Shown here piece after piece: positions 43,658 to 48,116 of a stretch of DNA of 64,000 bases; within the stretch, counting starts at the first letter, position 1, and the number at the start of each line of letters is the position of its first letter. Below the pieces are notes generated by a model. The model had not been told where the DNA came from. It was given only the letters and a program-made list of their open reading frames with translations, and made no database searches. The DNA is from an uncultured Alphaproteobacteria bacterium (GTDB lineage: Bacteria; Pseudomonadota; Alphaproteobacteria; HIMB59; GCA-002718135): positions 31,898 to 95,897 of the forward strand of contig CACGTA010000003.1 in NCBI GenBank assembly GCA_902575815.1. The letters are read 5' to 3'. A program made the translations under genes and the position numbers.

Positions 43658-44959
43658 TTGAATAAATATAAATTATTAGTACTAATGGTAGAAGGTTTAA
43701 AAATTAGATTTGAAATTCATAATATATTATTTTCAATATATAAATTTAATAAAACTTTAAATAATCATTCAATTAAAATAAAAATTAATAAGCAAACAAA
43801 AGAGGATATTTCTTTTTTGCACAATGTAACATTAAATTCAATGAGATTTAATTTACATTGTTTAAAAATAATAAACAAATATATTAAAAAAAAATTAAGA
43901 GATCATGAAAAAATTTTATTAATAAGCGCAATAACACAAATTGTATTTTTAGACTTTAAAGAGTATGCAGTTATTAATTGCTCAGTTGAAATTGCAAAAA
44001 AATTAAAACTCTACCCAGGCCTTATTAATGCAAGTTTAAAAAAAATAGCTAAAAACAAAAATAATTTGAAAGAAGTTAAAATTAGCTTTTACGATTTTCC
44101 ACTTTGGTTTCAAAAGAAAACTTTTAATTTAACAAAATTTGAAAAAAACCAATTTATTAATTATTTTTATAGGGAGCCAGACATTCATATTGTTTTTAAA
44201 AATGAAAAAAAATTAGATAAATTTGAAGATAAATTGATCAAGACATCAAAAATCTCAGGTTTTATATTAAATAAAAAAGATTTTCAAAATAAACAATCTT
44301 TTATTAATGGAGATTGGTGGGTGCAAGATTTAAGCTCCTTTCTTCCTCTTTATAATTTTCAAGAATATAATAACAACAAAGGTAAGAAATTTTTAGACGT
44401 CTGTGCAGCTCCTGGTGGCAAATCTTTTCAAATTCTTTCAAATAAACATAATATCATTTTAAATGATATAAATAATACTAGGATTAAAACTCTTAAAGAT
44501 AATTTAAAACGACTAAAATTGAATGCAAAAATAATAAATAAAGATTTTACTAAATTTAATAATAAAGAGAAATACGATATAATTATAATTGACGCCCCAT
44601 GTTCAGCAGTAGGGACGATTAGAAAGAATCCTGAAATTTTTTTCAAAAGAAGTGCCCCAAATTTTAATGAACTAATTTTGTTACAAGAAAATATGTTAAA
44701 TAAAGCTTCAAGTATATTAAATGAAAATGGATATATAATTTATATGACCTGCTCTTTTTTAAAGATTGAAACAATTGATCAAATCGATAATTTTATCAAT
44801 AAAAACTCTAATTTTTTGATAGCTGATTTTGAACTTATTAAAAATGAGAATAGCTACTCAAAATTAGTTAAGAAAAATCATATGATAACCATACCTAATA
44901 TGATCTTAAATTTTAATATAGATGGATATTTTGCAGCCTTTTTAAAAAAAATAAAATGA
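43658..44959 (+). CDS. rsmB: 16S rRNA m5C967 methyltransferase RsmB-like
   Basis: 433 residues: a NusB-like N-terminal RNA-binding domain (about 10-140) followed by a SAM-dependent RNA m5C methyltransferase domain. The SAM site is FLDVCAAPGGKSFQIL. Motif IV is DAPCSAVGTIRKNPEI and the second catalytic cysteine is in YMTCSFLKIET. The start in the track is TTG with no clear ribosome site, so an internal Met nearby (LMVEGLK) is possible. The rsmB - heparinase-like - purH order is conserved in alphaproteobacteria. Confidence 0.93.
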   Translation: MNKYKLLVLMVEGLKIRFEIHNILFSIYKFNKTLNNHSIKIKINKQTKEDISFLHNVTLNSMRFNLHCLKIINKYIKKKLRDHEKILLISAITQIVFLDFKEYAVINCSVEIAKKLKLYPGLINASLKKIAKNKNNLKEVKISFYDFPLWFQKKTFNLTKFEKNQFINYFYREPDIHIVFKNEKKLDKFEDKLIKTSKISGFILNKKDFQNKQSFINGDWWVQDLSSFLPLYNFQEYNNNKGKKFLDVCAAPGGKSFQILSNKHNIILNDINNTRIKTLKDNLKRLKLNAKIINKDFTKFNNKEKYDIIIIDAPCSAVGTIRKNPEIFFKRSAPNFNELILLQENMLNKASSILNENGYIIYMTCSFLKIETIDQIDNFINKNSNFLIADFELIKNENSYSKLVKKNHMITIPNMILNFNIDGYFAAFLKKIK

Positions 44960-46482
44960 TTTTAGCTTTAAAAAAAATAATATTTAATAACATAACATCA
45001 AAATTTAATTCTAGAAAAGACTTGTCTTATTTAGATCTTAATTTTAGAAAAATAGATTTTACAAATCATAACAAGATAAAGTCATTTATTTTTAAAAAAG
45101 ATTTTTATAAAAATAAAAATATTCATAATTTTGATTTTTTAAATTTTTCAAATAGGCTTGGAGGTAAAATAGGAATAAATTTATCTAAAGAAGCAATTTT
45201 TGGATGGTACAAACTAAACAAAAATAAAATAGGCTTTCCTTGGTTAGAAGATTTACCATCTAAAAGGCTGATAAATCTTTTATATAACTATGAGTATATA
45301 AACTCCTCATCAAAAATAGATAACAAAAAAAAATTAGATTTTATAATTTATTTTCATATTCAAAGAATTTTATTTGATTTCAATTCGAAGAAAATAACAG
45401 AATTAACATCATTTGATCTTGTGGCATATTTATTATCTTGTTCAATTCTTGAAAAAATGAATGAAAAAAAAATAAATTATATTAAATTTATAGTTGATAA
45501 CCAAGTTGACAAATTAGGAATGCATAAAAGTTATAATTTATTAGAACATTCTAAATTTATTAATAATCTTAACGAGATAAAAAATATTTTACTTTTTTTT
45601 GAATTAGAAAAATCAAATATATTTGACAAGATAATTCTCAAAATGACATCTATATTAAATGAATATTTTCATTATGATGGAACATTACCACTGTTTAATG
45701 GTACAAATAATATTTATACAAAAAATATCTACAATTCCCTGAATAAAGAAAACTATTTAAAAAAAAGAGAGTTTTCTAATATAGACAATGGAATTGCATT
45801 TTACTCAGATAAATATAAAAAAATTTTTTTTGATGTAGTACAGCCAACTTCAGATATGATAAGTTCTAATCTCAGTGCAGGAACTCTATCTATTGAAATA
45901 AGTGGCTTTAACGAAAAAATAATTACTAACTGTGGAGCTTCAGAGAGTTTTGGTAAAAATCCTGAATATCTAAGATATAGTGCTGCTCATTCAACTGTTG
46001 TTTTGCAAAATACTAACATAAGTGAGATAAAAGAAGACAATCCACACATAAAATTTCCTCAATCTGTTGTCTTTAGAAAAGATACTGATCAACAGAAAGA
46101 AATATTTGAGGGATCACATAATGGATATTTAAAAAAGTTTAATAAAATAATTAAAAGAAAAATAATTATTTACAAAAATAAAAGTAAATTAGAAGGAGAG
46201 GATAGTTTAATTTCTTATAAACATAAAAATATAAGACTAATTTATCATATTAGGTTTCATCTGGCAGATGAAATGGTTTTAAATTTTACAAATAATAAAA
46301 AAAATGTAATTATAAAAACAAAACTAAACAACATTTGGCTTTTTAAAAGTAATACTGAGCTGATTATAGAGGATAGTATATCAGTCGATAATAATATTAC
46401 TAAACCAACTAAACAAATTGTGATTAAAGGTGTATTATCAGATAAAAAGATTGTAGAAAAATGGTCCATAGAAAAAATCTAA
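44956..46482 (+). CDS. Heparinase II/III-like protein
   Basis: 508 residues: an N-terminal (alpha/alpha) toroid half and a C-terminal beta-sandwich half. The family block DNGIAFYSDKYKKIFFDVVQP ... AGTLSIEISGFNEKIITNCGAS and the active-site-like YLRYSAAHSTVVLQNT are clear. Usually such proteins cleave uronic-acid polysaccharides, but the version next to rsmB and purH in alphaproteobacteria has no proven substrate. No signal peptide is visible. It overlaps rsmB by 4 bp and purH-N by 22 bp. Confidence 0.87.
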   Translation: MILALKKIIFNNITSKFNSRKDLSYLDLNFRKIDFTNHNKIKSFIFKKDFYKNKNIHNFDFLNFSNRLGGKIGINLSKEAIFGWYKLNKNKIGFPWLEDLPSKRLINLLYNYEYINSSSKIDNKKKLDFIIYFHIQRILFDFNSKKITELTSFDLVAYLLSCSILEKMNEKKINYIKFIVDNQVDKLGMHKSYNLLEHSKFINNLNEIKNILLFFELEKSNIFDKIILKMTSILNEYFHYDGTLPLFNGTNNIYTKNIYNSLNKENYLKKREFSNIDNGIAFYSDKYKKIFFDVVQPTSDMISSNLSAGTLSIEISGFNEKIITNCGASESFGKNPEYLRYSAAHSTVVLQNTNISEIKEDNPHIKFPQSVVFRKDTDQQKEIFEGSHNGYLKKFNKIIKRKIIIYKNKSKLEGEDSLISYKHKNIRLIYHIRFHLADEMVLNFTNNKKNVIIKTKLNNIWLFKSNTELIIEDSISVDNNITKPTKQIVIKGVLSDKKIVEKWSIEKI

Positions 46483-47060
46483 AAAAAAAATTTGCCTTAA
46501 TTTCTGTATTTGAAAAAAAAAATTTAAAATATCTTTGTGATAATTTAGATAAATATAACTATAGGTTTATATCAAGTGGTTCTACAGGAAATAAAATAAG
46601 AAGTTTAGGCTTCAAATGCCAGGATATTTCAAAACTAACTAAATTTAAAGAAATGTTTGAGGGTAGAGTTAAAACATTAAATCCATTGATCTATAGCTCT
46701 TTGCTCTACAAAAGAAATGATAAGAATCACCAAAAACAGTTTCAGTCTTTAGACTTCCCCAAAATAGATATTGTTGTAGTAAATCTTTATCCATTTAAGA
46801 AATATTTAAGAAAAAATAATAGTGATCAAATTATAGAAATGATAGATATAGGAGGTCCGAGTTTATTAAGGGCAGCAGGAAAAAATTTTGAACATATTAC
46901 TCCAATAATAGACATAATGGATTATAAAAAATTAATTACTAATTTGGAAAAAAATAAAGGAACAACTGATATTTTTTTTAGAAAAAAAATGGCATTAAAA
47001 GTTTTTAAAAAAACATCTCAATATGATGAAATAATCGCTAATTGGTTAAATGAAAAATAA
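46461..47060 (+). CDS. purH: PurH N-terminal half: IMP cyclohydrolase domain (split gene)
   Basis: 199 residues covering only the MGS-like IMP cyclohydrolase domain of PurH. Family positions kept are Lys71 (RVKTL), Tyr110 (NLYPF), Asp129 (IDIGGPS) and Lys141 (AAGKNFEH), corresponding to human ATIC K66, Y104, D125 and K137. The nearby His of the common TLHP motif is Asn74 here, which is unusual. The frame ends at TAA 47058-47060, exactly in the interdomain linker. The AICAR transformylase half begins 11 bp earlier in the +1 frame. Confidence 0.92.
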   Translation: MVHRKNLKKKFALISVFEKKNLKYLCDNLDKYNYRFISSGSTGNKIRSLGFKCQDISKLTKFKEMFEGRVKTLNPLIYSSLLYKRNDKNHQKQFQSLDFPKIDIVVVNLYPFKKYLRKNNSDQIIEMIDIGGPSLLRAAGKNFEHITPIIDIMDYKKLITNLEKNKGTTDIFFRKKMALKVFKKTSQYDEIIANWLNEK

Positions 47061-47967
47061 AAGCAGAAAAACTAAATTAAGGTATGGTGAAAACCCAAAT
47101 CAAGATAGTTATTTAATTAGTCGTTCAAAGTCCTCTGTTTTTGAAAATCAAATTAGTGGAAAGAAATTAAGTTATAACAATCTGATTGATCTTGATAGTG
47201 GATTAAAATGTTTAATGGAATTTGTTGAGCCTACATCAATAATTCTCAAACATACAAATCCTTGCGGTGTTGCCTCAGCAAAAAAAATTGAGGTTGCTTT
47301 TAATAAATCTTATGAAAGTGATCCAAAAAGTGCTTTTGGAGGAATAATATTTTTAAATAGGAAGGTATCTTATAAGCTTGCTAAAATTATATTTAAAAAT
47401 TTTTATGAAATGATAGTTGCTGCTGATTATGATCAAGCTGCTATCAAAATATTAGAGAAAAAGAAGAATTTAATTTTGTTAAAAATTCCCAATATTAAAA
47501 AAAAATCAGTTGAATATAGGTCAACTCTCTTTGGAGATCTTTATCAGACTACAGATTTAGATCCAATCAATAAAAAATTTCTTAGATTGGTCTCAAAAAA
47601 AAAGGGGTCAAAGAAATCAATTGATGACTTAATATTCTCATTGAAAATTGTAAAATATTTAAAATCAAATGCTGTTATATTATCTAGAAATAAGCAAACC
47701 TTAGGATTAGGTCATGGGCAAACAAACAGGGTAGATGCTCTAAATTTATCAATTAAAAATATGAATAAATATTTTAAAAAGGGTAACTTTGTTTGTGCTT
47801 CAGATGGATTTTTTCCTTTTAAAGACAGTATCAACCTACTTAATAATAATGGATGTAATGTTGTAGCTCAACCTAGTGGTTCTATAAATGATAAGATAAT
47901 AATATCCTATTCTATAAGAAATAAAATTTCATTATATTTTACAAAAAATAGATTGTTTAAACATTGA
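47050..47967 (+). CDS. purH: PurH C-terminal half: AICAR transformylase domain (split gene)
   Basis: 305 residues covering only the AICAR formyltransferase domain. It starts with ATG 47050 and quickly reaches LRYGENPNQDSYL. The catalytic pair Lys67-His68 lies in LKHTNPCGVA, followed by SDPKSAFGGII, LKSNAVILSRNKQTLGLGHGQTNRVDAL, SDGFFPFKDSINLL and QPSGSINDK. All expected sites are present. It catalyses formyl-THF-dependent conversion of AICAR to FAICAR. Together with the upstream 199 residues (504 total) it equals one normal PurH of about 510-530, minus part of the linker. Confidence 0.94.
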   Translation: MKNKSRKTKLRYGENPNQDSYLISRSKSSVFENQISGKKLSYNNLIDLDSGLKCLMEFVEPTSIILKHTNPCGVASAKKIEVAFNKSYESDPKSAFGGIIFLNRKVSYKLAKIIFKNFYEMIVAADYDQAAIKILEKKKNLILLKIPNIKKKSVEYRSTLFGDLYQTTDLDPINKKFLRLVSKKKGSKKSIDDLIFSLKIVKYLKSNAVILSRNKQTLGLGHGQTNRVDALNLSIKNMNKYFKKGNFVCASDGFFPFKDSINLLNNNGCNVVAQPSGSINDKIIISYSIRNKISLYFTKNRLFKH

Positions 47968-48116
47968 CAAAAAATATAAAATTCCCAAGATATCTGAAAA
48001 AATTAATTAAGTATCATCCAAAAATCACTTCAGGTAGAAAAAATTTTCAGAACCATAACTATAGAATTAATAAAACTATAGAAATAATTAAGAAATATTT
48101 TAATTTGAAAGACTAG
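47964..48116 (+). CDS. Possible small basic protein (50 aa), unrecognised
   Basis: A frame beginning TTG at 47964, overlapping the purH stop by 4 bp (TTGA), runs to TAG at 48114-48116. The product is Lys-rich and basic (NIKFPRYLKKLIKYHPKITSGRKNFQNHNYRINKTIEIIKKYFNLKD) with no membrane segment. Composition resembles the coding regions around it and the stop-start overlap fits an operon. There is no ribosome-binding site, and it could be chance in AT-rich DNA. Confidence 0.3.
   Translation: MTKNIKFPRYLKKLIKYHPKITSGRKNFQNHNYRINKTIEIIKKYFNLKD

Follow-up and report, generated by a model that had tools for sequence, protein, structure and literature searches.

purH as two overlapping genes in one clade of marine HIMB59 alphaproteobacteria: a very probable fission in the interdomain linker

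Results and Discussion

Layout of the purH locus

The window (the whole stretch of 64,000 nucleotides that was analysed) belongs to a marine alphaproteobacterium of the HIMB59/AEGEAN-169 group, family GCA-002718135, whose genome is available as a fragmentary assembly (58% complete, 56 contigs). Its purH locus comprises the following features:

44956-46482, forward strand: heparinase II/III-like gene (PF07940), upstream of the cyclohydrolase gene and overlapping it by 22 nt
46461-47060, forward strand: stand-alone IMP cyclohydrolase gene, the N-terminal half of PurH (ORF1, 199 aa)
47043-47045, forward strand: codon of a conserved linker Trp
47047-47049, forward strand: TAA in the transformylase frame, directly before its ATG
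47050-47052, forward strand: ATG with which the transformylase gene begins; the conserved Trp codon starts 7 nt before it
47050-47060, forward strand: 11-nt overlap ATGAAAAATAA, from the transformylase start to the cyclohydrolase stop, as given by the coordinates of ORF1 and ORF2
47050-47967, forward strand: stand-alone AICAR transformylase gene, the C-terminal half of PurH (ORF2, 305 aa, in the +1 frame relative to ORF1)

The region is tightly packed: an RsmB-like gene, the heparinase-like gene and the two purH genes (43658-47967, forward strand) follow one another with serial overlaps of 4, 22 and 11 nt. Further on, the transformylase stop is overlapped by 4 nt by an ORF of 50 aa that begins with TTG (47964-48116, forward strand).

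An earlier note on this DNA had described two ORFs of these lengths, overlap and relative frame, with the break in the linker at the domain boundary. The coordinates are confirmed, and comparison with NF002049, the 510-position model of bifunctional PurH, agrees with the placement of the break: ORF1, which carries the MGS domain (PF02142), matches positions 4-195 (E 3e-62, 211 bits), and ORF2 matches positions 210-510 (E 2.6e-95, 320 bits). Because the two ORFs together span the model nearly end to end, the break falls in the linker and leaves both domains whole. Taken singly, neither half reaches the curated cut-off of the family (402 bits), and annotation pipelines may for this reason call purH broken or the pathway incomplete.

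Distribution of split and fused purH

The transformylase domain PF01808 was found in 79 of the 102 genomes of the window's genus; the number of genomes without a match (23) is about as expected from incompleteness. Among these 79, purH consists of two ORFs in 50, is fused in 27, and is interrupted by contig ends in the remaining 2. The fused genes (27 of the 77 readable genomes) are single ORFs of 500-523 aa situated at the same locus as the split ones. The earlier note had proposed a search of related genomes; it finds the close relatives split, and fused genes only in more distant lineages of the genus. Split genomes that could be matched by name are separately sequenced single-cell assemblies. 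Named relatives with the same locus are marine genomes labelled as uncultured Alphaproteobacteria, among them AG-891-K05, a single-cell genome that serves as reference of genomospecies GCA002718135-1.A (family GCA-002718135, order HIMB59/AEGEAN-169; PMC10734472). The first residue of the RYGEN motif, listed as an AICAR contact, is Arg in all 50 split genes, whereas 10 of the 27 fused genes (loci L003-L029) have Lys there (KYGEN).

Elsewhere in the family and order the readable purH genes are fused, apart from one genome with in-frame stops (G116) and a few contig-edge fragments. A survey of 387 alphaproteobacterial genomes, 303 of them with the domain, gave no other split among the matches listed, on the basis of the matches per genome and a follow-up of odd cases. 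Nor was another split found in a sample of 149 genomes across Pseudomonadota (146 with the domain), where the match is full-length and lies in a single open frame in every genome except the window's. Public genomes yielded 80 loci, 20 of which are split, all from this clade.

In the order and class surveys ten odd genomes were followed up as candidates for further splits, and none is one: some have pieces of purH at contig edges, others a full-length gene, alone or accompanied by an additional copy or an end fragment, and G116 has in-frame stops. This last genome, of the HIMB59 order, has a purH with several such stops (G116:C2:250486-251163), reflecting either real decay or assembly errors. 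Another genome, of the same family as the window (G107), shows the transformylase half only, which ends at a contig edge and is uninformative for the split. Locus L110 was flagged by the split test but was taken as fused, its transformylase frame being 544 aa long. In addition to a normal purH, two genomes of the phylum survey (G573:C1:122795-123751 and G559:C51:15399-16364) encode a second, very divergent PF01808 homologue, its frame being about 580 aa long.

A probable single origin

The heparinase-like gene adjoins purH in all 77 loci and was used as an independent tree marker. In the purH tree, built from both domains, the 50 split genes all lie on one side of one branch (SH-aLRT 98), and when the tree is rooted with fused genes of other genera of the family the split clade receives a support of 99 and is nested within the fused genes. 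The tree of the heparinase-like gene gives the same division with a support of 98 and a single change; both trees are quick ones, computed without bootstrap, and the two loci agree. Since the split genomes form one clade in the trees of purH and of its upstream neighbour, the simplest history would be one fission, with no reversal and with vertical inheritance. A joint transfer of purH with the neighbouring heparinase-like gene is compatible with the two trees taken alone.

The junction and the start of the second gene

Each of the 50 split genes has a start codon at +7 from the start of the Trp codon (48 ATG, 1 GTG, 1 TTG), as compared with 2 of the 27 fused genes; the background inside the first gene is 2.4% ATG per +1 codon. 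A Fisher test of split against fused genes gives 3e-18, a value that overstates independence because the genomes share ancestry, as holds for count-based statistics here generally. The better argument is that a start codon persists although the residues overlying it turn over (NE, DE, ND, YE, SE, DV, LE, NA). Synonymous change has abolished the +1 ATG in 5 of the 50 at a conserved Tyr-Asp site that lies a few codons upstream. From the one start site the overlap measures 8, 11, 14 or 17 nt in all split genomes. In the window RYGEN lies at +37 from the start of the Trp codon (47043), and this spacing of 37 nt (1 mod 3) recurs in 48 of the 50; in the fused genes the spacing is variable, 33-51 nt, in multiples of 3. 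No Shine-Dalgarno-like motif was seen upstream of the second gene in any split genome.

The transformylase half occupies the +1 frame in 49 of the 50 split genomes. In the sole genome with its second half in the other frame (L042; G062, AG-453-C10), RYGEN follows the Trp codon at 35 nt, and the start is a TTG that overlaps the stop by 4 nt next to an A8 run; the canonical ATG persists, but its frame closes early. This frame may be real or an error.

A fused PurH could still be produced across such a junction, alone or besides the two halves, by programmed +1 ribosomal frameshifting or transcriptional slippage, and the earlier note had suggested a +1 slip at AAA-TAA. The +1 direction shared by nearly all split genes, the A-rich overlaps, and the rank of AAA-TAA as the commonest end would suit such a slip. 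However, AAA-TAA closes the first gene in just 18 of the 50; the last codon and stop take 15 forms and the stop slides among four positions, without a conserved slippery site. A-runs of at least 7 occur near the stop in one genome, the other 49 having 6 nt or fewer. The shared direction, moreover, follows from the fixed start site, and a start codon kept in every split gene is superfluous for a frameshift. In half of the split genomes (25, among them the window's) the start is immediately preceded by a stop in the second frame, so that any frameshift would be confined to the overlap itself. We therefore favour separate initiation, on the strength of the kept start codon and the lack of a conserved slippery site or Shine-Dalgarno motif, and consider a fused product by slippage quite improbable.

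Active sites and selection

A frameshift is a frequent first step of gene decay, and the genomes concerned are small and streamlined, as would suit a frameshifted purH pseudogene in cells that salvage purines or make them by another route. Against this, both halves are open at full length in 50 genomes and their active sites are preserved, as the earlier note had read them for the window. The cyclohydrolase residues named for human PurH, K66, Y104, D125 and K137 (PMC3261824), correspond to positions 71, 110, 129 and 141 of ORF1, and these equivalents are invariant in all 50 split genomes. The window's transformylase retains the RYGEN, KH, KSN, ASDGFFPF and C-terminal R/H motifs, and those checked are likewise invariant in the 50, except for one Asp changed to Asn in a single genome. 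In the split genes dN/dS is mostly 0.05-0.2, exceeding this range in a few comparisons only, those with a tiny dS; fused pairs give similar values. Purifying selection acts on both PurH halves. The PurO and PurP families were not detected in the 9 split genomes searched, of which 8 have purC, and the split PurH is hence the only route detected there for these two steps. We give decay almost no credence; the functional fission preferred in the earlier note is strongly supported by the 50-genome clade, the invariant residues, the purifying selection and the conserved start. A sequencing or assembly error in the window is scarcely believable either: indels in A-runs are a common sequencing error and the window's assembly is fragmentary, but genomes of the clade that were sequenced separately have this layout too, down to the recurrent 37-nt spacing, and at clade level an error is refuted.

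A probable route from one gene to two enzymes

The split is real and was found in a single clade, in which the active sites are intact, both halves are under purifying selection and the start codon is conserved. We regard it as highly probable that it represents a genuine, clade-wide fission, in which a fused purH was cut once in the linker into two stand-alone enzymes. The ancestral gene would have been severed between its two catalytic domains, by an indel to which the present spacing points, and the net frame change would have moved the transformylase to the +1 frame, behind a start inside the last cyclohydrolase codons. IMP cyclohydrolase and AICAR transformylase would then be translated separately from the overlapping pair, whose mRNA is probably shared, and as two separate enzymes would perform the consecutive last two steps of purine synthesis. 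Both proteins are presumably made and active. As in the unfused PurH1/PurH2 enzymes, each domain forms a separate complete ORF with its own start, the start being assigned by conservation only. Two separate enzymes should be viable: in human and in S. lugdunensis PurH the domains remain functional after separation, the human enzyme shows no channeling, and the cyclohydrolase of A. fulgidus is unfused (PMC6797443).

Translational coupling is frequent among overlapping gene pairs, which are also enriched in complex subunits (PMC10666635). As in coupled pairs, the second start lies near the first stop and is conserved across relatives (50 of 50), and a degree of coupling between the two genes, with their overlaps of 8-17 nt, is plausible. 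Coupling is reported to be strongest at -4 to +3 nt, and its efficiency to drop as the overlap grows beyond 4 nt; the overlaps found here are less favourable (PMC12548453). Their length, the missing Shine-Dalgarno-like motif before the second gene and the deviating frame of L042 are the points that speak against the fission reading. Selection might keep the start codon inside the first gene, the enzymes being freed from obligatory 1:1 covalent pairing and their amounts separately settable, a proposal on which we lean neither way.

Comparison with known systems

Non-archaeal organisms almost uniformly use fused PurH (PMC6797443). The literature searched, with most subscription journals lying outside it, gave no published report of this purH split. 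Compared with bifunctional PurH/ATIC (NF002049, TIGR00355), the split form has the same domains, in the same order, with the same active-site residues and at the same genomic locus, and its direct sisters are the fused, bifunctional genes found elsewhere in the genus; it differs in consisting of two polypeptides with separate starts and not of one ORF. The enzymes themselves are known; what is new is their arrangement as bacterial genes, with a clearly single origin. A split clade of 50 species and its fused sisters at the same locus offer a natural comparison of the states before and after fission, one that bears on the reasons for keeping the fusion, on the way in which a frameshift turns into a functioning gene boundary, and on the use of a start codon without a Shine-Dalgarno motif inside another gene.

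In archaea the PurH domains likewise reside on separate proteins, PurH1 and PurH2: AF1811 of Archaeoglobus fulgidus, a PurH2, is an active stand-alone IMP cyclohydrolase, and PurH1 is fused to PurN in Halobacteria (PMC6797443, PMC3261824). There, however, the partner step is performed by another enzyme family (PurP or PurO), whereas here both halves are kept and adjacent, the split having arisen recently, as a derived state within one genus of bacteria. In the GeneTack survey, conserved frame-transition pairs classed as translational coupling resemble the present pair in being overlapping ORFs of linked function, with start and stop conservatively close (PMC3711429); its main text does not name purH.

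Stand-alone AICAR formyltransferase (NF005492, PRK07106) is single-domain, like the window's transformylase. The latter reaches only 124.5 bits against the cut-off of 415 for that family and matches bifunctional PurH far better. On the side of the cyclohydrolase half, a short matching chain is ForH (PDB 6nko, 216 aa). It is the more remote match, with E 2.9e-20 where the best PurH reaches 2.3e-42, and it serves formycin biosynthesis in Streptomyces and not core purine synthesis.
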